DNA from: a virus
DNA length: 31,610 nt
IMG/VR virus record: IMGVR_UViG_3300017746_000074
Span: 1-31,610 of that record
Direction: 5' to 3' (one strand)
The position numbers were made by a program, and so were the translations under genes. Positions 22,296 through 31,610 of this stretch are shown one piece after another. The notes beneath the pieces were generated by a model. The model saw only the letters and a program-made list of their open reading frames with translations, was not told the DNA's origin and searched no databases. Numbering within the stretch: position 1 is the first letter of the stretch; each line of letters opens with the position of its first letter.

Positions 22296-23135
22296 ATGGC
22301 ATCGTATGCAAGTTATAAAAAAGTCACATCAGATAGTATCCCATCGGGCGCAATAACAGCGGCAAAATTACAAGCCGGTGCTGGAGCGTGTCGTAAGGTA
22401 CAATGGATTTACAACGAACGAGGTTTACGTTGTCACCAGTGTGCTAGAGAGTCAGGCTGTTGTGAACAAGCAAACGGTAAGTGCTGTTATTGGTGTGTTC
22501 CAGACAACGTATATAAAGTAACATTTGAAATTTGGAGTGGCGGCGGCGGAGGCCCAGGTCACACATGTTGTAATTGTTGTTCATTTTCAATTGGTGGATT
22601 CGGCGGTAACTACGCAACTAAAACAATTGATACTAATCCAGGATGTCAGTATAGTGTATGTGCAGGAGGCAGTTGGCCTTGTGGTAAATCACACACATGT
22701 ACAGCAGGTATGGGATGTAGAAGTTATGTAAACGGACATAACCTAAGTAATTATTGTACAGACGGCGGATGTCCAGGTTGGATGTGTAACGGAGATGCGT
22801 GGGGTCAAAGACACGCTGTAACTAGTTGTGCTAACTGTAGAATTTGTGGTATCTTTGGAGCTGATTTTGGCTTTTCAGGAGATGCTGGTATTAAAGCAGG
22901 TACAACAACTTGTAGATGTCATGGACAAACAAGTTGGACAGGATCTGGTGCTGGTATGGGCATGTATATGGCTACTATGACAAACGAAGCATGGTGTGCT
23001 TGTGGATGTCATATTCCGTGGCCAGCAGGCGGAGGTACATCAGGAACATCAAGTTATTGTAATAACTGGGCAAAATGTTGTGCGGGTGGTTCAGGCCAAG
23101 GCGCATCAGGCATAGTAAAGATTACATTTGTATAA
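22296..23135 (+). CDS. Cysteine- and glycine-rich adhesin-like protein, copy 1
   Basis: A 279-residue protein with 31 cysteines (about 11 percent). Residues 1-30 (ASYASYKKVTSDSIPSG, ITAAKL) look like a fibre attachment segment. The core follows the glycine-rich fold pattern of phage tail-tip proteins: VTFEIWSGGGGGPG, GGFGGNYATKTI, CQYSVCAGGSWPC and an ending GQGASGIVKITFV. Onto this are grafted Cys motifs such as CHQC, CCEQANGKCC, CCNCC, CANCRIC and CACGC. Trp is also frequent. There is no signal peptide or membrane segment. The glycine-rich loops suggest receptor recognition; the Cys suggest disulfides or metal binding, which the sequence cannot decide. An AGGAAA site precedes the ATG. First of three tandem paralogues. 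Confidence 0.72.
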   Translation: MASYASYKKVTSDSIPSGAITAAKLQAGAGACRKVQWIYNERGLRCHQCARESGCCEQANGKCCYWCVPDNVYKVTFEIWSGGGGGPGHTCCNCCSFSIGGFGGNYATKTIDTNPGCQYSVCAGGSWPCGKSHTCTAGMGCRSYVNGHNLSNYCTDGGCPGWMCNGDAWGQRHAVTSCANCRICGIFGADFGFSGDAGIKAGTTTCRCHGQTSWTGSGAGMGMYMATMTNEAWCACGCHIPWPAGGGTSGTSSYCNNWAKCCAGGSGQGASGIVKITFV

Positions 23136-23144
23136 GGAAAAAGA

Positions 23145-23981
23145 ATGGCAACGTATTCAAGTTATAAAACATTAACAGCAGACAACTTCGAAGATAATAG
23201 TATTACGGCGGCTAAACTAGGCGCTCAAGCTGGTAACAAATATGACTCATTTTATGTTTATAACGAGCGTGGAATGGCATGTCAACACTGTGCTGATAAC
23301 GGAAACTGTTGCCAACAAGCAAATGGTAAATGTTGTTACTGGACAGCTCCAGCAAATGTTTCTAGAGTAACATTTGAAATTTGGAGTGGCGGTGGAGCAG
23401 GAGCAGGCGGCACATGCTGTAACTGTTGTATGCACTCAGCAGGTGGATCAGGTGGTAACTACGCAGTAAAAAGTATTAGTACGTGTCCTGGCTGTCAATA
23501 TTCAATTTGTGCTGGCGGTACATGGCCATGTTCAAAATCACATACTTGTACAGCAGGTATGGGATGTAAGAGTTATGTAAATGGATATAACCTAAGTAAT
23601 TTTTGTGCTACAGGTGGTTGCCCAGGATGGATGTGTAATGGAGACGCATGGGGTCCTAGACACACACAAACATGTGGTAACTGTAATATATGCGGAATTT
23701 TTGGAGCAGACTTTGGAATTATGGGATCAACCGGAGTAACAGGCGGACACGGTGGATGTCAATGTAAATCAGGAGACTGGGGCATGACAGGATCAGCACC
23801 TTTTGTAGGTAAAAGATTTGCTGGTTCAAACGCAGAAGCATGGTGTAACTGTGCTTGTTATACGAACTGGCCTGCAGGTGGCGGACAAACAGGACAAAGT
23901 TCATATTGTGGTAACTGGGCAAAATGTTGCGCAGGCGGTAATATGGGTGGCTCAGGATTAGTTAAGGTAACATTCGCTTAA
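23145..23981 (+). CDS. Cysteine- and glycine-rich adhesin-like protein, copy 2
   Basis: A 278-residue tandem paralogue of the 22296 protein with 30 cysteines, nearly all at the same alignment positions. The conserved blocks are NERGMACQHC, CCQQANGKCCYW, VTFEIWSGGGAGAGG, CCNCC, CSKSHTCTAGMGCKSY, GGCPGWMCNGDAWGPRH, CGNCNICGIFGADFG and SSYCGNWAKCCAGG. It lacks the Cys after YW and gains STCPGC. The most variable parts are the N-terminal 40 residues and residues about 195-235 (GVTGGHGGCQCKSGDWG onward), which fits a variable recognition loop. It begins 9 bases after copy 1, with an AGGAAA site. Confidence 0.72.
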   Translation: MATYSSYKTLTADNFEDNSITAAKLGAQAGNKYDSFYVYNERGMACQHCADNGNCCQQANGKCCYWTAPANVSRVTFEIWSGGGAGAGGTCCNCCMHSAGGSGGNYAVKSISTCPGCQYSICAGGTWPCSKSHTCTAGMGCKSYVNGYNLSNFCATGGCPGWMCNGDAWGPRHTQTCGNCNICGIFGADFGIMGSTGVTGGHGGCQCKSGDWGMTGSAPFVGKRFAGSNAEAWCNCACYTNWPAGGGQTGQSSYCGNWAKCCAGGNMGGSGLVKVTFA

Positions 23982-23993
23982 GGAAAGATAAAA

Positions 23994-24830
23994 ATGGCAA
24001 CATACGCAAGTTATAAAAAAGTACCAGGTGAATCAATTGTAGACGGTAGTATTACAAGTGATGATATTGCCCACGGTAACGGTAACAACTACGGAGTACA
24101 ATGGATTTACAATTCTCGTGGCATGGTTTGCCATGCTTGTGCTAGACAAAGTGGTTGTTGCGAACAAGCAAATGGTAAATGTTGTTACTGGTGTGTTCCA
24201 AATGGAGCAAGTACAGTAACATTTGAAATTTGGTCAGGTGGAGGCGGCGCTCCAGGCATGACTTGTTGTAACTGTTGTTCTTTCTCAATTGGTGGAGCAG
24301 GTGGTAGTTATGCTACTAAAACAATTAGTACATCTCCAGGATGTCAATACAGTGTATGCGCAGGTGGCTCATGGCCATGTGGTAAAGCACATACTTGTGT
24401 AGCAGGAATGGGTTGTAAATCATACATTAACGGACATAATTTGTCAAACTTCTGTGTAGAAGGTGGCTGTCCGGGTTGGATGTGTAATGGTGATGCTTGG
24501 GGACCAAGACATACACATACATGTTCTAACTGTAGAGTATGTGGAATATTTGGCGCAGATTTTGGAATGATGGGAACAAGTGGTACAGAACCAGGACATG
24601 GTGGCTGTCACTGCTGGTATACTTATTCATTCTCAGGTTCAGCACCGATGATCGGTAAACAGCAAGTAGGCGTTACTAACGTTTCTTGGTGTTCATGTGG
24701 TTGTCATATTGATTGGCCAGCAGGCGGTGGACAATCGGGTGTTAGTTCATATTGTGGAAACTGGGCCAAGTGTTGTGGTGGCGGATCAGGTCAAGGCGGA
24801 TCTGGTGTAGTCAGAATAACATTTATGTAG
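23994..24830 (+). CDS. Cysteine- and glycine-rich adhesin-like protein, copy 3
   Basis: A 278-residue third tandem copy with 30 cysteines. It is closer to copy 1 in the first half (CEQANGKCCYWCVP, CCSFSIGG, QYSVCAGGSWPCG) and closer to copy 2 in part of the second half (GDAWGPRH, SGSAP/TGSAP, GGQSG/GGQTG). This mosaic suggests exchange between copies. The variable region around residues 195-235 differs from both (CHCWYTYSFSGSAPMIGK). It begins 12 bases after copy 2 with an AAGGAAAG site, and its stop is followed at once by the late promoter at 24837. The role is inferred as for copy 1: distal adhesin with a Cys-stabilised or metal-binding glycine-rich fold. Confidence 0.72.
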   Translation: MATYASYKKVPGESIVDGSITSDDIAHGNGNNYGVQWIYNSRGMVCHACARQSGCCEQANGKCCYWCVPNGASTVTFEIWSGGGGAPGMTCCNCCSFSIGGAGGSYATKTISTSPGCQYSVCAGGSWPCGKAHTCVAGMGCKSYINGHNLSNFCVEGGCPGWMCNGDAWGPRHTHTCSNCRVCGIFGADFGMMGTSGTEPGHGGCHCWYTYSFSGSAPMIGKQQVGVTNVSWCSCGCHIDWPAGGGQSGVSSYCGNWAKCCGGGSGQGGSGVVRITFM

Positions 24831-24862: not shown

Positions 24863-25651
24863 ATGAGAATGATTAGTAAAACATTTACTTACCCAGTATG
24901 GGATGCCTGGAGAACAAATAGTTTCGCCGAAGGACGTACAGATACATTTACGTACAACGGTCCGGAATTTTTAACTTTTGAAGTAAGCAATGATCCAAAC
25001 GATCCTGACTACGGAAAAGAAACTGGTTGGTGTTTATGGTTAAAACAAGACCTTGAACGTCCATCAGGCGCTGACGTTACAAGAATAACAGTTGATTGTA
25101 AAGAACAACCTTTACTATGTGAAATTGGTAACGATTGTGGTCGTGATGACATGATCCAAAAACGTAGACAAAGAGAATGGTTAGTACTATGGGACGCTCC
25201 TGAAGGGCACCAAGACGTAGAATACACAAATGACTTAGAACCAAGAGACATTTATAACGATAATGATATCACATATGATTTTGATACAGAAACGTTTAAT
25301 ATTGGCGTAAGAGATTGGGCCGCAACAGGTACAAAAATGGATCTTACATGGCAAGATCTTAGAGATGTAAGAGACCAAGACTTAAATGATACAGATGCTA
25401 AAGTTGGACAAACAGATGCTCCACAAGCAATTCAAGATGCTTGGATAGCTTACAGACAGCGTTTAAGAGATTTGCCAGCATGGGCACAAGCACAAGGTTA
25501 CGAACCATGGCAAGCAGTTCAAATGTGGCCAGTTATGCCAAAAGATATGCGTGATCCAGATGCGGCATCAGATCCAGAAGATCCGTATAGAGATGGAGCC
25601 TTTGCTGTAGACGTAGCAGTTGCTGCACTTAAAGTAGCCGGCAAAAGATAA
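24863..25651 (+). CDS. Probable phage tail assembly chaperone-like protein (262 aa)
   Basis: A 262-residue acidic protein. Residues about 1-110 are beta-like (SKTFTYPVWDAWRTNSFAEG near the start) and include a short Cys group (VDCKEQPLLCEIGNDCG). The C-terminal third has AIQDAWIAYRQRLRDLPAWA, which matches the W-x2-YRQ-x-LRDLP pattern common to phage tail-fibre assembly chaperones and related tail proteins. The ending is helical and Ala-rich. It has its own late promoter and AGGAG site and is followed by a strong terminator, so it is the last gene of the structural block. A chaperone for the preceding fibres or adhesins is plausible from position and motif, but it could equally be a virion component. 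Confidence 0.6.
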   Translation: MRMISKTFTYPVWDAWRTNSFAEGRTDTFTYNGPEFLTFEVSNDPNDPDYGKETGWCLWLKQDLERPSGADVTRITVDCKEQPLLCEIGNDCGRDDMIQKRRQREWLVLWDAPEGHQDVEYTNDLEPRDIYNDNDITYDFDTETFNIGVRDWAATGTKMDLTWQDLRDVRDQDLNDTDAKVGQTDAPQAIQDAWIAYRQRLRDLPAWAQAQGYEPWQAVQMWPVMPKDMRDPDAASDPEDPYRDGAFAVDVAVAALKVAGKR

Positions 25652-25672: not shown

Positions 25673-25706
25673 AAAAACCCTTACATTAACGTGTAAGGGT
25701 TTTTTC
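25673..25706 (+). terminator. Strong rho-independent terminator
   Basis: A perfect 13-bp stem (25673-25685 with 25692-25704), containing CCCTTACA paired with TGTAAGGG, closes a 6-base loop (TTAACG) and ends in six T residues (25700-25705). It marks the boundary between the structural genes and the enzyme block. The A-rich side gives it some potential in the reverse direction too. Confidence 0.92.
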
Positions 25707-25742: not shown

Positions 25743-25749
25743 GTAAATA
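25743..25749 (+). promoter_or_regulatory. Possible promoter of the enzyme block
   Basis: GTAAATA (TGTAAATAT) lies between the terminator and the TTG start at 25771, where a promoter is expected. It differs from the usual late element at the first positions, so it may be a weak late promoter or belong to another class. The AGGAG site for 25771 is at 25760-25764. Confidence 0.4.
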
Positions 25750-25770: not shown

Positions 25771-26829
25771 TTGGAACGCAAAAAAGCATATTTTATCAAC
25801 GGTGGAGCAGGCAGGGTTGTCGCAAGTATTCCAGCGTTTGAAAAACTGTACGAAGAAGATCAAGACTTTATTATTGTTTGTGAAGGCGGAATGGACTTTT
25901 ACAAAGGACATCCACAACTACATGAACTAGCATATGACAATTGGCATAAAAATTTATTTAAAGATTATCTTAAAGATAGAGATATTATTTCGCCAGAGCC
26001 GTATAGAGTCTGGGAATATTATAATCAAAAATGTAGTTTAGCACAAGCATTTGATATTGCTATTAATAACAAAGGTGTTAGAAAATTACAAGATCCAACT
26101 ATACATATGAACAAGCATGAACTTGTACAAGGGTATAAAGTTGTTGAAGAAATTAAAGCAGTAACTGGCAAAGACAAAGTAGTAGTGTTCCAACCATTTG
26201 GTCGTACAGCCGAAAATATGGGTGACTTTGTAATTGACGGAACTTCAAGAAGTTTTCACTTAAATGATGTTATACGTGTTTGTAAAGACTTACGTGATGA
26301 TTATGCTGTAATTGTAATGAGTGAATTTCCTGTAACTATTGAAGAAAAGCCAACAGTTCCTATTGCTGTTCCACAAATTCCAGATGTAAGAGTTTGGTCT
26401 AGTGTAATTCAAATTGCTGATCACTTTATTGGATGTGATAGTTTAGGACAACATATGGCAAAAGCATTAGGTACTACATGTACTAGTGTTATTGGTAGTA
26501 CATATCCTATTAATATTTCTTATCCAGACTCACCAGATTTTGATATTATTGATTTAGGTGAAGGCAAACGTAAGTTTAGTCCTATTAGACTTACTATGGA
26601 AGATGAAATCGAAAGATTTAATGACGAAGTTATGGAGTTAAATGATGAAAGTTTTAAAAAGATTATTTCAAGTGCTCGCAAGCGTTTGGGTAAGCCGAGA
26701 AGTTACAGCGGAAACTACAAACCGCAACAAGAGCAAGGGGAGGTCTGCCCAACTCATGGAGTAGTACATTCAGACGGAGTAACACATGCTAAACAACCTG
26801 CTCAAATATTAGGAAGAACAGGAAAATAA
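25771..26829 (+). CDS. GT9-like glycosyltransferase (heptosyltransferase fold)
   Basis: A 352-residue protein. It opens with FINGGAGRVVASIPAFEKL, resembling the N-terminal Gly loop of ADP-heptose transferases (GT9). A second Rossmann half starts near 140 (VVVFQPFGRTAENMG). Residues 211-232 read SVIQIADHFIGCDSLGQHMAKA, resembling the GT9 acceptor/donor element in which a Ser or Gly and His follow GCDS. The last 45 residues are a polar tail with C-P-T-H-G-x-x-H. The start is TTG, with AGGAG 6 bases upstream; the first in-frame ATG is 35 codons in and would delete the Gly loop. It follows a terminator and heads the enzyme block, with 1 base to the next gene. The sugar and acceptor are unknown. 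It may transfer a sugar to a phage or host surface polymer. Confidence 0.65.
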   Translation: MERKKAYFINGGAGRVVASIPAFEKLYEEDQDFIIVCEGGMDFYKGHPQLHELAYDNWHKNLFKDYLKDRDIISPEPYRVWEYYNQKCSLAQAFDIAINNKGVRKLQDPTIHMNKHELVQGYKVVEEIKAVTGKDKVVVFQPFGRTAENMGDFVIDGTSRSFHLNDVIRVCKDLRDDYAVIVMSEFPVTIEEKPTVPIAVPQIPDVRVWSSVIQIADHFIGCDSLGQHMAKALGTTCTSVIGSTYPINISYPDSPDFDIIDLGEGKRKFSPIRLTMEDEIERFNDEVMELNDESFKKIISSARKRLGKPRSYSGNYKPQQEQGEVCPTHGVVHSDGVTHAKQPAQILGRTGK

Positions 26830-26830
26830 A

Positions 26831-27529
26831 TTGGCTGAAGAATTTGATCATAGAGCTTTAGATGCTAGAATGGAACACGAGTGGCAAAAGAATGTTAAGC
26901 CGCAAGTAAAAGCCTCGCAAAGTTTAGAGACTTGGGTCATTACAGATAACTTTTACCCCGGATGGAAAAGGTTTGAAAAGTTATTTGACGATACAATATA
27001 CGATACTAAAAAAGATAAACTTATGCCTTATGTATTTTATACACAAGGTGAAATGAATTACCCAGACACAGTTGATCCTGAACTAGACTTTCAAGAATTT
27101 ATTAAAAAATGTTTACTTCAAAGTAGTTTACCAATTACTATGGGTAAATGTTTAAAAGCATGGGGATTAAAATATCCACCGGGTTCGTACAGTGGTATGC
27201 ATTGTCATCAACCAGGCAAACAATTATCAGTTGTAATGTTTTTAGACGATGTAGAAACAACAGAACTATATCCATTAGCAGGATCACTAGTTACACTACA
27301 GCCGTTTGAACATGACATTAATCACGTTCGTATAAAACCAACGCCGGGTGGTGTTGTTATTATGGACGGAAGAGTATTTCACGGAACATATCCTACATTA
27401 AATGATCGTAGAGTATTTGTTGCTGATTTTGAATACGAAACATTTGAAACATTATCAACTCAAGCAGGTACATCTTTAATGTATCAACAAACAACTTTAC
27501 CTATGCCAAATCAGAACGATCTTGACTGA
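26831..27529 (+). CDS. 2OG-Fe(II) oxygenase-like protein (232 aa)
   Basis: A 232-residue protein with the double-stranded beta-helix layout of 2-oxoglutarate oxygenases. Residues 123-130 read MHCHQPGK, followed by LSVVMFLDDVE. Then come GGVVIMDGRVFHGTYP with a distal His at 184 and NDRR with Arg 193/194, followed by VFVADFEY. The likely metal set is H124-x-H126 with H184, in place of the usual H-x-D, and an Arg after it could bind 2-oxoglutarate. The N-terminal 70 residues (WVITDNFYPGWKRFEKLF) fit the helical start of this fold. The start is TTG one base after the previous stop; ATG at 26870 is an alternative that would drop 13 residues. Likely a hydroxylase. The substrate is unknown; a sugar or protein modified with its neighbours is inferred. 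Confidence 0.65.
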   Translation: MAEEFDHRALDARMEHEWQKNVKPQVKASQSLETWVITDNFYPGWKRFEKLFDDTIYDTKKDKLMPYVFYTQGEMNYPDTVDPELDFQEFIKKCLLQSSLPITMGKCLKAWGLKYPPGSYSGMHCHQPGKQLSVVMFLDDVETTELYPLAGSLVTLQPFEHDINHVRIKPTPGGVVIMDGRVFHGTYPTLNDRRVFVADFEYETFETLSTQAGTSLMYQQTTLPMPNQNDLD

Positions 27530-27575
27530 TTTTATAGGTACATATAGTATAACAACTTATTAAGGAAGAAAACGT

Positions 27576-29402
27576 ATGACACAGTGGATTGGCGCAATCA
27601 CAAGAGGACACAATGGAGGAGCAGTTCTCCTTAAAGATGGCGAAATTGTTTTTGCTATTGAAGAAGAACGCTTAACACGTAAAAAGTATGATGGCGGACC
27701 TCTTGCCGCAATGATCAAATTTTTAGAATATACAGATAAATTAGATTATCTAGTAGTAGCACATACACAACCTTTAGCAGATTCAAGTAGAATTGACTTT
27801 AGTGGCGGAGATATGTACACTGGACTAGCAAGAAAGTTAGGACTTATTGATAGAGCGGAAAATGCTTTTGGTTCAAACTTTGATCATAGACAAGTAATTG
27901 ACCTAAGTCATATACATCACAAGTTACATGCTAGTTGTGCGTTTTATAGATCAGGATTTGAAAGTGCTACAGCAGTAATTGTAGACGGTGCTGGTACATT
28001 TATTCCGATGAATATTAATGCTGGTCAGTTCCAAGAAGAATTTATGACTTGGGAATGTGAAACTATTTTTAATTGTTCATATCCTGATAACTTTAAAACT
28101 GTATTCAAACATCAAGGCGGCAACGGTCCTTTCCCAGGAGCAAAAGTTGATTATATTCCTTCTGAAAGAGAAGGTGAAGAAGGATATCACCAATTAATTT
28201 TAGATGATACTGCTGGCATTGTTAAAGCATACGAAGCAGTAACACAATACTGTGGATTTCAACCAATTGAAGCAGGTAAAACTATGGGATTAGCACCTTA
28301 CGGAAAGCCTAACCCTAATGTACCTCAAATTTATACTAACGGTGGCGGCGGCAAATGGACTAGCAGTGATAGAAATGTAATTGTACCTACATATCCTAAT
28401 GCGGCTGTGGTAAACGAAAGCAAATATGAGTTTTTAGAAACGTCTGAAGACTTACATGACAGTAATGTTGATCTTACAACATTAGAAAATCGAAGAGATT
28501 TAGCATATGCTGTACAAGCAGGATCCCAACAACAAGTTTTAGACTTAATTTTTCAATCTGTAGAAACTACAGGTAATAAAAATGTTGTACTTAGCGGAGG
28601 ATACGCATTAAATTGTGTTGCTAACTATTGGTATTTAGATAAATTGGCTAAAGAAGGTATTAATTTATATGTAGAGCCTGTTTCAAGTGACGCAGGTACA
28701 GCAATTGGTGCCGCTTTGTTAGTTTATCATCAAACAACTAAAGATAAAAAAGTAAGAGATTACGCAGAAACTATTTACGAAGGATTTAGTTATACATATA
28801 CTGACAAAGAGATTAATGATACTGCTGAGAAGTATAATGCTACAGTAGTTGATTGTCCTACTAACGATAAAGTTATAGAACTTATTAAAAACAATACTAT
28901 TGTAACTATGTTTCAAGGACGTTCTGAAAATGGACCAAGAGCATTAGGTAATAGAAGTATTTTATACAATCCAACAGACCCAGACGGAAAAGATCACGTT
29001 AATAAAGTCAAACGTAGAGAATATTTCCGTCCATTTGCCGGCACAATCTTAGCAGAACACGCACATGAATGGTTTGATATGAAAGGACTAGAAGAAAGTC
29101 CGCATATGATGTACGCAATGGATTGTAAAGACGGAGTTGCTGAAAAGATTCCAAGTATTATTCATGTAGACGGTACTTGTAGAATACAAACAGTTACCGA
29201 AAAACAAAATAAACATTACTATGACATTATTAATGCGTTTTATAAAGAAACAGGAGTTCCGATTATTTTTAATACTAGTTTTAATCTAGGCGGCGAACCT
29301 TTAGTAGAAACACTAGATGATGCTGTACGTACACTGTACAATAGTGAAATGGAGTATTGTTATTTGCCAGAATACGGCAAACTAATTGAAATGCGGAACT
29401 AA
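27576..29402 (+). CDS. Carbamoyltransferase, NodU/CmcH/TobZ family
   Basis: A 608-residue, full-length family member. The N-terminal domain is Kae1-like (WIGAITRGHNGGAVLLKDGE; FAIEEERLTRKK). H114 and H118 in HHKLH, D137 in VDGAG and D372 in SSDAGTA match the metal and nucleotide-binding set of TobZ-type enzymes. AGKTMGLAPYGKP and NVVLSGGYALNCVAN are typical family motifs. The C-terminal YrdC-like domain starts near 447 (GRSENGPRALGNRSIL) and has FNTSFNLGGEPLVET near the end. Family members move a carbamoyl group from carbamoyl phosphate, through an adenylate, to a hydroxyl of a sugar or natural product. AAGGA precedes the ATG; the stop overlaps the next ATG by one base. The hydroxyl acceptor may be made by the neighbouring oxygenases or transferase. 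Confidence 0.93.
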   Translation: MTQWIGAITRGHNGGAVLLKDGEIVFAIEEERLTRKKYDGGPLAAMIKFLEYTDKLDYLVVAHTQPLADSSRIDFSGGDMYTGLARKLGLIDRAENAFGSNFDHRQVIDLSHIHHKLHASCAFYRSGFESATAVIVDGAGTFIPMNINAGQFQEEFMTWECETIFNCSYPDNFKTVFKHQGGNGPFPGAKVDYIPSEREGEEGYHQLILDDTAGIVKAYEAVTQYCGFQPIEAGKTMGLAPYGKPNPNVPQIYTNGGGGKWTSSDRNVIVPTYPNAAVVNESKYEFLETSEDLHDSNVDLTTLENRRDLAYAVQAGSQQQVLDLIFQSVETTGNKNVVLSGGYALNCVANYWYLDKLAKEGINLYVEPVSSDAGTAIGAALLVYHQTTKDKKVRDYAETIYEGFSYTYTDKEINDTAEKYNATVVDCPTNDKVIELIKNNTIVTMFQGRSENGPRALGNRSILYNPTDPDGKDHVNKVKRREYFRPFAGTILAEHAHEWFDMKGLEESPHMMYAMDCKDGVAEKIPSIIHVDGTCRIQTVTEKQNKHYYDIINAFYKETGVPIIFNTSFNLGGEPLVETLDDAVRTLYNSEMEYCYLPEYGKLIEMRN

Positions 29403-30001
29403 TGAGCATACATTTATTTGGTATACCAGTATATAAAACGTTATTAAAAGAGCATAGTTTAGTTCAAGAAGACTTTAAAGAAATTCTTAACGATGATTCT
29501 AATTTTGCTAAAGTACCTACTTGGTATAGTAACGTTGATACTACTTACGGAAATAAAAAAGCTAACAAATTACCATTTAAACGATTTATTAGATCAGCTA
29601 TCGAAGGATTAAATGAATATTTAGAAGTATTTGACGTAGATGTTTCGTTAGATTACCAAATTGAATGTTGGGTTAATAGATATAAGCCAGGACAGTTCCA
29701 AGAAGTTCATAATCATGCTGGCCCTGCTCAGATTAGTTGTGCTTACATGCTTAAGACTCCTCCTAGTAGTGGAAATTTTGTGTTTCATAACAATACATAT
29801 GACTATTTTCATCAGTCAGGCTTACCTAGTTTGTCATCTAAAGATTTCAAATACAACAATAGAATAACACCTCCTTGTGAAGAAGGAGATATTATATATT
29901 TTCCAAGTAACCTTGGACATTATGTATCAGACAACCAAAGTAGTAATACCAGAGCAACTATAAGTGCTAATTTTGTTATAAGAGAGAAACACAATGGATA
30001 A
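29402..30001 (+). CDS. Putative 2OG-Fe(II) oxygenase, PF13759-like
   Basis: A 199-residue protein. It begins SIHLFGIPVYKTLL, like the short first strand of PF13759-type oxygenases. W-x-N-R-Y-x-PG-x-F is followed by EVHNHAGPAQISCAYMLKTP, giving H103-x-H105. The downstream GDIIYFPSNLGHYVSDN gives distal H173, and NTRATISANF gives R184 for 2-oxoglutarate. The H-x-H pair is usual in this family. It is coupled to the carbamoyltransferase by TAATG and overlaps the next gene by 8 bases. The family is common in marine T4-like phages, but its substrate is unsettled. Hydroxylation of a phage or cell-surface component is an inference. Confidence 0.85.
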   Translation: MSIHLFGIPVYKTLLKEHSLVQEDFKEILNDDSNFAKVPTWYSNVDTTYGNKKANKLPFKRFIRSAIEGLNEYLEVFDVDVSLDYQIECWVNRYKPGQFQEVHNHAGPAQISCAYMLKTPPSSGNFVFHNNTYDYFHQSGLPSLSSKDFKYNNRITPPCEEGDIIYFPSNLGHYVSDNQSSNTRATISANFVIREKHNG

Positions 30002-30692
30002 AAATGTAATTGATGAGGACGAAGTATTTGCTGTTAATTCTGATTGGTCCATTTCAGTACAAAAATTTAATGATGTTAAAGTAGTTATTGTTGATGACTT
30101 TTACAAAGATCCTTGGGCAGTAAGAAAACTAGCATTAGATATCCCTGCCTCGTATAATAAACGTATCAGAGGTGGCAATCCTGCTTTAAGAGTTAATGCG
30201 TTTTATGAATTATCTAATTTAGGATGGGCTTTCGATCAATTAATTAGTACATACTTTGATGATGTGTACTATGAGCATCCTTTGGGCTGGGTACAAGAAA
30301 GTTTAATGAGAGCTACCTTTATGGTAAATGTAATGCAAACAGACAATCTACCTCCGATTGCTCCACATCAGGATAATCCTAGTAAAATTAATATAGCATC
30401 TACAATATATCTTAATACACCTAACGAATGTGCTGGTGGTACAAGTTTTTATACATACAATGATAAAACAACATATGACGAACCTGGGAATAAAACATTA
30501 GACGTTGCTGGAAAGCATCCTATAACACAATATATTACAGATAGTATTGGTGATTTTAAAATGATCGGTATGGTTCCGATGATATTTAATAGGATGGTTT
30601 TGTATAATCAATCAAAACTACATACAGCATATGTAAAACCAGAAATGTTTACTGGTAATCTTTACAGATTAAACCAACAATTTTTTATATAG
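29994..30692 (+). CDS. DUF6445-like iron oxygenase-fold protein (232 aa)
   Basis: A 232-residue protein. VVIVDDFYKDPWAVRKLALD near residues 30-50 is typical of DUF6445-like proteins. A metal-site pattern H125-Q-D127 (APHQDNPSK) is followed by NIASTIYLNTP, AGGTSFYTYN, then KLHTAYV with distal H210 and R225 in LYRLNQQFF. This gives the full H-x-D...H plus Arg layout of Fe(II)/2-oxoglutarate enzymes. It overlaps the previous gene by 8 bases (ATGGATAA) and lies 9 bases before the next. In bacteria such proteins are, from memory, found near tryptophan-halogenase-like genes, matching the nearby 31270 gene. An enzyme acting with the halogenase is a reasonable guess, but no reaction is proven. Confidence 0.7.
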   Translation: MDKNVIDEDEVFAVNSDWSISVQKFNDVKVVIVDDFYKDPWAVRKLALDIPASYNKRIRGGNPALRVNAFYELSNLGWAFDQLISTYFDDVYYEHPLGWVQESLMRATFMVNVMQTDNLPPIAPHQDNPSKINIASTIYLNTPNECAGGTSFYTYNDKTTYDEPGNKTLDVAGKHPITQYITDSIGDFKMIGMVPMIFNRMVLYNQSKLHTAYVKPEMFTGNLYRLNQQFFI

Positions 30693-30701
30693 GAGAAAAT
30701 A

Positions 30702-31277
30702 ATGGATGGTAATTTTGACGGAGTTGAAGAATACCCAAATGCTTTTCCGATTGACTGGTGTAAGCAAGTTATAAAACGCTTTGAGGAAATGTCAGCTAAT
30801 AATTTAACAAATTTACAAAGTAGTACAAAGAATCAAGACGAACGTGTATACATGGACTGGGCAAATCATAATAGTAGGTATCATGCCGACGATGATCTTT
30901 GCCATTTCTTTTATAGTACCCTTAATAAAATTTATACAGAGAAGTATCGAGGCAAATACGAAAGTTTAGGTAACGTTTTACAACATTCGCCTAAAGGAAT
31001 GAGTATACAAAAGACTAAACCGCACCAAGGATATCATGCTTGGCACTGTGAGAATGCAGATTTAAGTTCATCGTCACGTATACTTGCTTATACTGTCTAC
31101 TTAAACGCTGTTGAAGAAGGCGGCGAAACAGAATTTTTGTATCAAGGTATAAAGTGTAAGCCTGAACCTGGTAAACTTTGTATTTTTCCTACATCTTTTA
31201 CACATCCACATCGAGGTAATCCTATATATAAAGGAGTTAAGTATATTGTAACTGGATGGTACACATTAGATGAATAA
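30702..31277 (+). CDS. 2OG-Fe(II) oxygenase, prolyl 4-hydroxylase-like
   Basis: A 191-residue protein. The first half contains FPIDWCKQVIKRFEEMSA, the N-terminal helix of prolyl-hydroxylase-like folds. The core reads GYHAWHCENAD with H115-x-E117, then ILAYTVYLNAVEEGGETEFL, then PEPGKLCIFPTSFTHPHRGNP with H168 (or H170) and a Lys-containing strand KGVKYIVTGWY. The order EGGETEF, PxxG, FP, H matches PF13640-type oxygenases. The first metal pair is H-x-E in place of H-x-D, an acceptable acidic swap. The start has an AGGAG site at about 30690-30694. The stop overlaps the likely start of the halogenase by 8 bases. The substrate is unknown; protein or glycan hydroxylation is inferred. Confidence 0.82.
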   Translation: MDGNFDGVEEYPNAFPIDWCKQVIKRFEEMSANNLTNLQSSTKNQDERVYMDWANHNSRYHADDDLCHFFYSTLNKIYTEKYRGKYESLGNVLQHSPKGMSIQKTKPHQGYHAWHCENADLSSSSRILAYTVYLNAVEEGGETEFLYQGIKCKPEPGKLCIFPTSFTHPHRGNPIYKGVKYIVTGWYTLDE

Positions 31278-31610
31278 AAGTATGAACATAGCAGTAGTTG
31301 GAGGTGGCACAGCAGGATTTGTGTCAGCACTAATTATAAAAGCAACCTTTCCTAAAATGAAAATTGATATGATCCGATCAAGTAAGATTGGAACTATAGG
31401 TGTTGGCGAAGGATCTACTGAACATTGGTCAAAGTTTATGGACTATGTAGGTATTACTGCTGGCAAACTTATAAAAGAATGTGATTCTACATTTAAAGCA
31501 GGCATTATGTTTGAAGACTGGACTAAAGATCCATATTTACAAAACGTACATGACCCGGTAGTAGCTGATCATATGGGATTTCCTATGGTACTAGCTAAAT
31601 TGATCGGTGA
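31270..31610 (+). CDS. Tryptophan halogenase-family flavoprotein, N-terminal part (cut by window end)
   Basis: The frame is open to the window edge, giving 113 codons. It has the FAD-binding Gly motif G11-x-G13-x-x-G16 (MNIAVVGGGTAGF, then VSALIIK) and the family element IGVGEGSTEHW at 43-53, typical of flavin-dependent tryptophan halogenases and their relatives. Downstream, FKAGIMFEDW matches the family segment after that element. The start is ATG at 31270, overlapping the previous stop by 8 bases as at 29994; ATG at 31282 is an alternative. The catalytic Lys and W-x-W-x-I-P lie further on and are not seen. FADH2 from a separate reductase would be needed for halogenation. Marine T4-like phages carry relatives, and the substrate is unknown. 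Confidence 0.88.
   Translation, partial: MNKSMNIAVVGGGTAGFVSALIIKATFPKMKIDMIRSSKIGTIGVGEGSTEHWSKFMDYVGITAGKLIKECDSTFKAGIMFEDWTKDPYLQNVHDPVVADHMGFPMVLAKLIG

Follow-up and report, generated by a model that had tools for sequence, protein, structure and literature searches.

A Conserved Enzyme Island behind the Adhesin Genes of Marine Phages and Its Possible Role in Heptose-Type Decoration of the Tail

Introduction

What would a marine phage do with a run of sugar-tailoring enzymes encoded directly behind the genes for its tail? The question is raised by IMG/VR virus record IMGVR_UViG_3300017746_000074, a fragment of its genome whose 31,610 bases, analyzed as a whole, are referred to here as the window. 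On its left side the window has genes for baseplate-wedge-like and long tail-fibre-like proteins, followed by those for three adhesin-like proteins and a tail-assembly-chaperone-like protein. Behind these lies a block of seven open reading frames (ORFs), all on the + strand (positions 25771–31608), for a GT9-type glycosyltransferase (GT), a 2-oxoglutarate (2OG) oxygenase-like protein (OGa), a carbamoyltransferase, a second 2OG-oxygenase-like protein (OGb), a DUF6445 protein, a further 2OG oxygenase (OGc) and the beginning of a flavin-dependent halogenase. A sequence-only reading of this DNA had proposed that the genes form one glycan-tailoring unit rather than a scatter of metabolic genes, and that they might decorate the phage's own tail or the surface of the infected cell.

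The genes do resemble one such unit. As to what it decorates, we put forward the view, whose chances of being right we judge to be even, that the block belongs to a late ADP-heptose-type pathway in which the GT9 enzyme would glycosylate a tail protein, with carbamoyl, oxidative and halogen tailoring in addition; the acceptor would probably be the adhesins encoded next door. Two pairs of observations carry this view: ADP-heptose-type enzymes together with a GT9 fold point to heptose transfer, and a strict place behind the adhesin genes together with late-type control points to a target in the virion.

Results

A Fixed Core and a Variable Shell

We collected 161 full-length carbamoyltransferase ORFs, which fell into 72 clusters at 95% identity, the window's own included. 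They came from the best 80 of 528 GT matches, the best 80 of 472 carbamoyltransferase matches, all ten of the ten DUF6445 scan matches and five isolates; related phages are present among the 72 clusters, which are thus not independent events. Genes in each locus were labeled by their best BLAST matches to seed proteins, and loci short on one side were excluded, which removed 15 of the 72 from the GT count and 20 each from the adhesin and downstream counts. A GT gene lay upstream of the carbamoyltransferase gene in all 57 clusters with enough sequence. As 80 of the loci had been retrieved with the GT as query, a fairer count comes from those retrieved with the carbamoyltransferase, namely 47 of 47 (not deduplicated). 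All 52 testable clusters had an adhesin gene upstream, and for the chaperone-like gene the count was 49 of 52. Within 8.2 kb downstream, a heptose-pathway gene (labeled as HldE, GmhB or epimerase) was present in 50 of 52 clusters, DUF6445 in 40 and a halogenase in 37, while verified labels placed the 2OG family downstream in 42 of 52 (an earlier count of 48 of 52 included some unverified labels and was not restricted to the downstream side).

The full downstream set in fixed order was seen in 20 of 22 loci of the close clade (at least 75% identity) and in none of 30 distant relatives, which carry similar kinds of genes (oxygenases, DUF6445 and halogenases) in reshuffled order. Since the pairing with the GT was seen in every testable cluster and the downstream set is confined in this way, we view the island as a fixed GT–carbamoyltransferase core with a variable shell. 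The sequence-only reading had supposed that the gene set stays together and had named independent assortment as the finding that would overturn it. The set recurs in the same order in many contigs, beyond chance, and the supposition holds for the GT–carbamoyltransferase pair and for the close clade, where independent assortment was not seen; it fails for the distant relatives, in which the window's order is absent and the oxygenases, DUF6445 and halogenases are reshuffled.

The genes of the block are under purifying selection. Of 40 comparisons (eight genes in five pairs), 38 gave a nonsynonymous divergence (dN) far below the synonymous divergence (dS), which was often saturated; in the other two, dS was not computable, yet the proportion of synonymous differences (pS) exceeded that of nonsynonymous ones (pN). 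The GT, the carbamoyltransferase and GmhB change slowly, OGb, DUF6445, the halogenase and a 286-residue protein encoded beyond the window change fast, and OGc is variable.

A scan of a genome collection for the GT returned eight loci, all in contigs titled as metagenome-assembled genomes (MAGs), and no cellular source of the GT was found among them. An adhesin label adjoins the pair in seven of the eight, and the eighth has a chaperone-like label only; with such labels beside the GT, the eight loci are probably misbinned phage. Two contigs of one Neomarinimicrobiota MAG (L178 and L181) show the same order around the GT and carbamoyltransferase genes, with tail-type genes, and are probably phage.

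Some individual loci depart from the common plan. At L011:4968-5540 the block contains an inserted gene for a sulfotransferase (PF17784, E 7.5e-31), in a cluster of four ORFs in which L011 and L115 are one and the same contig. In a sister lineage, a radical-SAM-like protein (L167:15508-16380; weak NCBIfam matches) is encoded downstream of the carbamoyltransferase. In Pelagibacter phage Mosig EXVC030M (L184), annotated 2OG oxygenases, MoaA-like enzymes, aminotransferases and a carbamoyltransferase flank the tail-fibre genes on both sides, which hints at a genome slot beside the tail fibres where tailoring enzymes accumulate more generally.

A Late-Type Transcription Unit

The block starts 119 nt behind the preceding gene, and its successive genes are separated by 1, 46, −1, −8, 9 and −8 nt. 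A terminator-type hairpin at 25673–25704 marks it as the start of a new unit behind the adhesin and chaperone genes. The proposal of a tightly coupled run of enzymes after a terminator is thus upheld by the hairpin, the near-zero gaps and the common strand.

The motif ATAAATA, which we take to resemble the T4 late promoter TATAAATA, was found close to where the GT gene begins in 23 of 25 close loci and before none of 243 internal block genes (33 OGa, 32 CT [carbamoyltransferase], 34 OGb, 32 DUF6445, 30 OGc, 30 HAL [halogenase], 26 SGNH and 26 GmhB). Two further genes of close relatives have it near their start in every case: the chaperone-like gene (21 of 21) and X170, the tail-type gene that comes next (25 of 25). 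In the window and in one other locus, GTAAATA replaces it before the GT. Over all 72 loci (1.18 Mb) the motif occurred 261 times on the forward and 28 times on the reverse strand, a ninefold bias. Sites of the form ATAAATANNT showed no excess in the whole window (5, versus 5.5 in shuffles), and the promoter argument rests on the position and strand of the motif in relatives. A sigma-70 scan likewise gave no excess (24 promoters versus 28.8 expected), and the terminator rules of that scan missed the hairpin shown by folding. Taken from motif placement, the block looks like one late transcription unit in the window's clade.

Linkage to the Adhesins

The label "adhesin" for the phrog_4205 proteins rests on their position and composition. 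Of 50,697 phage records, 16 had a match to the adhesin at an E-value of 1e-5, and all 16 also carry the GT, in agreement with the expectation that the enzyme set would correlate with particular adhesins. These 16 fall among 23 records in which the GT was covered over at least 80% of its length (among the best 40 of 55 GT matches), the other seven being four S-CAM3 records and three single-cell fragments; by species the records represent few phages, and several are duplicates. The window's baseplate-type protein matches 407 records of the same set, and restriction to GT carriers is therefore not general to the window's tail genes. In its longer matches (the best 60 of 82 fibre records) the long tail fibre shows almost the same restriction as the adhesin; the fibre carriers absent from the best 40 of 55 GT matches are Mosig EXVC030M and S-BM3.

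In 62 close-clade copies the adhesin-like proteins (22296–24830 in the window) average about 10.7% Cys, 19% Gly and 3.5% Trp. For a tail protein that is assembled in the cytoplasm this composition is unusual; conceivably the cysteines serve metal binding or a Cys-linked modification.

Identities of the Enzymes

The GT had been called GT9-like, an assignment that is weak by sequence and strong by predicted fold. Its match to PF01075 (E 0.24, 11.1 bits) falls short of the cut-off of 22 bits; 13 of 31 family members match that profile at E≤1 (best E 0.0046), and a search of PDB sequences with the first GT profile gave one unrelated match only (E 0.24). For the AlphaFold model (predicted local distance difference test, pLDDT, 83), 8 of the 11 top rows of a fold comparison were GT9/heptosyltransferase entries (Z 17.7–22.0), among them a Veillonella GT9 protein (22.0), heptosyltransferase II (19.7), WaaC (18.2) and TibC (17.9). 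The other three were chains of plant NDH-PSI supercomplexes (Z 17.6–18.2), and the next row stood at 11.9. In its predicted structure, then, the GT has the GT-B fold of the GT9 type, and the linked heptose genes suggest ADP-heptose as its donor.

The carbamoyltransferase has both the N and the C domain of its class (PF02543, E 6.2e-26; PF16861, E 2.7e-59). Its nearest solved structures are 7xb6, a novobiocin enzyme, TobZ (E 7e-60) and GdmN, and the HH...H and SxDxG residues are invariant across six phage homologues.

Among the oxygenase-like proteins, OGa is weak in Pfam (E 0.01, below cut-off) and clear in PHROGs (phrog_81, E 9.6e-12), whereas OGb and OGc match 2OG-FeII_Oxy_5 (E 6.6e-16) and 2OG-FeII_Oxy_3 (E 5e-13), respectively. 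In OGc, H115, E117 and H168/H170 are near-invariant in 37 sequences and would supply the HxD/E...H triad. The DUF6445 protein (Pfam, E 3e-18) gave a model (pLDDT 94) that matches lysyl hydroxylase LH3 (Z 13.4), OGFOD1 (Z 13.3) and other 2OG oxygenases, and its H125, D127, H210 and R225, invariant in 30 sequences, fit an HxD...H motif plus a distal Arg. As modeled, DUF6445 has a 2OG-oxygenase fold; the families named earlier, three 2OG proteins and a DUF6445 protein, are thus all present, and the proteins of 2OG-oxygenase type number four. We rejected two PHROG names, "minor coat protein" for the DUF6445 protein (29994–30692), whose predicted fold is that of a 2OG oxygenase, and "DNA endonuclease (V)" for OGc (30702–31277), which Pfam places among the 2OG oxygenases; both are likely carried-over misannotations. 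With PADLOC, four of nine proteins were placed in a generic 2OG family and nothing more specific was obtained.

The halogenase is present as well, its N-terminal part only, as the contig ends there. The fragment matches Trp_halogenase at E 3.4e-21 and a full-length, near-identical copy matches PF04820 at E 2.6e-91. The protein has GxGxxG and a candidate catalytic Lys76, invariant in 20 sequences, which by its place in the motif would correspond to Lys79 of PrnA and VirX1. S-SSM7 has a second, short halogenase (GU071098.1, 168252-169244) with a 367-residue open frame, whose match to the family is split into two parts with a profile gap.

Beyond the Edge of the Window

The genes listed in the sequence-only reading do not make up the whole set, which extends past the edge of the window. 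Contig IMGVR_UViG_3300017783_000060, 99.9% identical to the window over 14,035 bases, continues with the whole halogenase (493 residues), the 286-residue protein, which has no Pfam or NCBIfam match, a GmhB-like heptose-bisphosphate phosphatase (191 residues; NCBIfam, E 1.6e-38) and then tail-type genes.

Relatives have, moreover, a second island, a convergent unit about 15 kb downstream, past a gene for a tail-fibre-like protein of 1,975–2,255 residues. We examined eight stretches of relatives, two of which (L168 and L174) are nearly identical. A cupin, an HldD-like epimerase and an HldE-like enzyme were present in all eight; two halogenase frames were present in seven, one frame being cut by the end of the stretch in L172 and L175, and none in L173. 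The exact late-type motif stood before the first structural gene in two of the eight only (L170 and L173). In genomes G001, G002 and G003 all three halogenases sit in the two islands, and in G001–G004 the single DUF6445 gene sits in the first. The HldE domains of P-SSM2 were matched at E 1.3e-30 and 3.3e-43 and an ADP-heptose epimerase at E 4.9e-62 (NCBIfam); the kinase and nucleotidyltransferase domains share one frame in eight of nine records of relatives. For the window's phage the second island can only be presumed, since its contigs stop before that place. A "GmhA/phosphoheptose isomerase" annotated in P-SSM2 (L004:16024-16368) was rejected as HAD-phosphatase-like, of the EcbF type (TIGR01689, E 1e-8, below cut-off), and that label was left out of the heptose-gene counts. 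Table 1 collects the features.

Table 1. Positions of the features discussed, in the window unless a locus is named
Feature	Position	Strand	Basis or remark
Gly/Cys/Trp-rich adhesin-like protein 1	22296..23135	+	phrog_4205 (no function in PHROGs); composition
Gly/Cys/Trp-rich adhesin-like protein 2	23145..23981	+	phrog_4205
Gly/Cys/Trp-rich adhesin-like protein 3, candidate acceptor	23994..24830	+	phrog_4205
Tail-fibre-assembly/chaperone-like protein	24863..25651	+	Phage_tail_APC, slightly under Pfam cut-off
Terminator-type hairpin and T run, end of adhesin unit	25673..25704	+	folding: −16.9 kcal/mol, z −5.8
Late-promoter-like motif GTAAATA	25743..25749	+	one mismatch to ATAAATA
GT9-fold glycosyltransferase (GT, P0001), TTG start	25771..26829	+	phrog_8954; predicted fold
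2OG-oxygenase-like protein OGa (P0002), TTG start	26831..27529	+	phrog_81
O-carbamoyltransferase, NodU/TobZ class	27576..29402	+	Pfam domains, PHROGs, PDB match
2OG-oxygenase-like protein OGb (P0004)	29402..30001	+	2OG-FeII_Oxy_5
DUF6445 protein (P0005), predicted 2OG-oxygenase fold	29994..30692	+	Pfam; model; invariant H125, D127, H210, R225
2OG-oxygenase OGc (P0006)	30702..31277	+	2OG-FeII_Oxy_3
Flavin-dependent (Trp-)halogenase (P0007), N-terminal 113 codons, cut by contig end	31270..31608	+	Trp_halogenase; 493 aa in L090:11277-12758
Second convergent enzyme island (cupin, epimerase, HldE-like, two halogenases)	L168:8753-14224; likewise L169, L170, L171, L172, L174, L175		between giant tail fibre and structural genes

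Discussion

How might the block work? The continuation and the second island of relatives encode an HldE-like kinase/nucleotidyltransferase, a GmhB-like phosphatase and an HldD-like epimerase, which together would make an ADP-heptose-type donor from a heptose phosphate supplied by the host. The GT9 enzyme would transfer the heptose to a virion protein whose production coincides with its own, the Gly/Cys-rich adhesins encoded upstream being the likeliest, in the way that TibC acts on autotransporters. The carbamoyltransferase could then place a carbamoyl group on a sugar hydroxyl, and the 2OG oxygenases and the halogenase could make further changes to the sugar or to side chains of the adhesin. 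The outcome would be a chemically decorated tail tip, tuning or shielding receptor binding. In its most specific form, that a lineage of marine T4-like phages makes its own late ADP-heptose-type sugar, glycosylates Cys/Gly/Trp-rich adhesins with it and then carbamoylates, hydroxylates and halogenates the product, the proposal is tentative, and we consider it rather unlikely to be right as it stands.

Several points weigh against tail decoration by a heptose. The main weaknesses are that the isomerase was not found and that we infer the acceptor, as we do the donor, of the GT9 enzyme. The sedoheptulose-7-phosphate isomerase family (SIS_2) was matched in none of 12 records (control 9 of 14), so that the isomerase step must be supplied from elsewhere. 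All four NCBIfam heptose matches score under their curated cut-offs, and HldE, the epimerase and the two extra halogenases come from relatives (carbamoyltransferase at most 84% identical) and not from the window's contigs. Two of the 52 clusters (L167 and L041) lack a heptose gene within 8.2 kb downstream, and GT9 enzymes build lipopolysaccharide (LPS) too. Where 2OG oxygenases have HxD/E, OGa has HxH (124/126, with a later H184), as does OGb (103/105, with a later H173). The halogenase has WMFRIP in place of WxWxIP; W[ML]FRIP was found in 90 of 90 close-clade copies over 430 residues (from redundant loci), and a review, in its accessible text, describes WxWxIP or its variants as missing from a number of flavin-dependent halogenases (PMC8407142). 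The linkage of GT and adhesin could be one of neighbours inherited together, and the Trp content of the adhesin had no clear link with the halogenase, being nearly the same whether or not one lay among the eight genes to either side (3.57% versus 2.91%). In distant relatives, finally, the late-type motif precedes the GT in just 17 of 38 loci (the chaperone-like gene in 29 of 34) and an extra first gene, S119, in none of 21, so that the unit there may begin elsewhere.

A different account, improbable in our estimate and yet deserving of weight, is that the enzymes change the surface of the infected cell (LPS or capsule) late in infection, for example to prevent re-adsorption to debris or to exclude other phages. 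GT9, HldE, GmhB and HldD are classical enzymes of the LPS core, such clusters have been published as "LPS genes" (accessible portion of PMC3037559), and late timing is equally compatible with this account. What speaks against it is that the GT–carbamoyltransferase pair is locked to the adhesins and that Sf-FS3, a phage of this kind isolated on Synechococcus WH8102, carries the GT and heptose-type genes, yet the LPS of that marine host is described as having no heptose (accessible portion of PMC4515613), which argues against mere LPS remodeling by that phage. The argument does not extend to the window's own clade; no psbA/psbD-family match was found in six of seven metagenomic records, which may be fragments.

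We think it unlikely that the block makes a diffusible halogenated and carbamoylated small molecule, the unit being tied to adhesins and to a late-type motif. Halogenases, carbamoyltransferases and 2OG oxygenases are, to be sure, typical of natural-product tailoring, and TobZ, GdmN and the novobiocin enzyme are among the solved relatives of the carbamoyltransferase. No scaffold-building enzyme was recognized in the block, a negative that is incomplete, as the 286-residue protein and an inserted one (c18) have no Pfam family.

Hypermodification of the phage DNA by base hydroxylation, glycosylation and carbamoylation is disfavoured, and we consider it very unlikely. A phage carbamoyltransferase of the same family acts on 5-hydroxymethylcytosine, while carbamoyltransferases of unmodified contigs adjoin genes such as glycosyltransferases (both from the accessible portion of PMC8670742). 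Cyanophage S-RIM44 has a more distant carbamoyltransferase match that touches or overlaps an annotated thymidylate synthase gene, and P-SSM2 has an annotated "td" about 7.5 kb behind its carbamoyltransferase; yet the thymidylate-synthase/hydroxymethylase family PF00303 was matched in none of 12 records, P-SSM2 included (control 9 of 14), the C5-methylase family PF00145 in none of 12 (control 10 of 14), and the GT has a predicted GT9 fold. A search for TET/JBP (0 of 12 records) shows nothing, as its control was silent too. That the block is unselected cargo or filler for headful packaging, with no joint function, as raised for cyanophage LPS clusters by Sullivan et al. 2010 (accessible portion of PMC3037559), is scarcely credible, since the low dN relative to dS for eight genes in five pairs, the order fixed in 20 of 22 close loci and the motif at the head only clearly weigh against it.

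If decoration of the tail is the right reading, the island would be a virus-encoded pathway of post-translational modification for the receptor-binding tip, a swappable toolbox behind a fixed GT–carbamoyltransferase core. Late-type control, selection and strict adhesin linkage make it a testable claim that these phages decorate their own receptor-binding proteins, and viral halogenases such as VirX1 would gain a native context. DUF6445 finds a place among the 2OG oxygenases, and in the island a constant transferase core is combined with tailoring enzymes that can be exchanged.

How does the island compare with known systems? In the accessible portion of their paper, Sullivan et al. 2010 (PMC3037559) described "LPS gene clusters" in the T4-like cyanophages S-SSM7, P-SSM2 and S-SM2, tabulated the carbamoyltransferase and prnA, and left the clusters as either a functional unit or "stuffer DNA." In common with the island, those clusters have a related GT (T4-GC 302) and carbamoyltransferase (GC 303) behind the tail-fibre genes, followed by heptose-type genes (GC 304–308), and in S-SSM7 these genes and a halogenase occupy the place that corresponds to the island. 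The window's GT is 58% and its carbamoyltransferase 65–67% identical to those of S-SSM7 and Sf-FS3, and a GmhB-like gene lies downstream in the near-identical contig. Unlike those clusters, the window's clade has OGb, DUF6445, OGc, the halogenase, the 286-residue protein and GmhB fixed downstream, and its relatives have a second island across the tail genes.

The GT shares a predicted GT9-type fold, and a proposed ADP-heptose donor, with TibC, a heptosyltransferase acting on an autotransporter surface adhesin (eLife 2014; accessible portion of PMC4358343); it differs in its identity of about 10–13% and in its neighbours, which are phage tail-type genes with no autotransporter acceptor beside it. 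The halogenase belongs to the phage flavin-dependent family of VirX1 (6qgm, cyanophage Syn10; E 2.7e-44), but is encoded inside a conserved island and has Phe for the second Trp of WxWxIP. The carbamoyltransferase is like TobZ and NodU in its two Pfam domains and its HH...H and SxDxG residues and unlike them in having a GT9-type enzyme as its genetic partner; it is of the same family as the phage 5-hydroxymethylcytosine enzyme (accessible portion of PMC8670742), unlike whose system the 12 records gave no PF00303 or PF00145 match.

The sequence-only reading knew of no described phage pathway with the full set. In literature that covered few subscription papers we found no account of an order-conserved set, its late-type control, its adhesin linkage or a later-established function of the LPS clusters, and to that extent the statement stands, but the GT, carbamoyltransferase, halogenase and heptose-type genes are already present in S-SSM7, and Sullivan et al. 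2010 had noted such "LPS gene clusters" (PMC3037559). The cyanophage versions are thus known as "LPS genes"; what appears new, judged from that literature, is the order-conserved island, its late-type control and its linkage to the adhesins.

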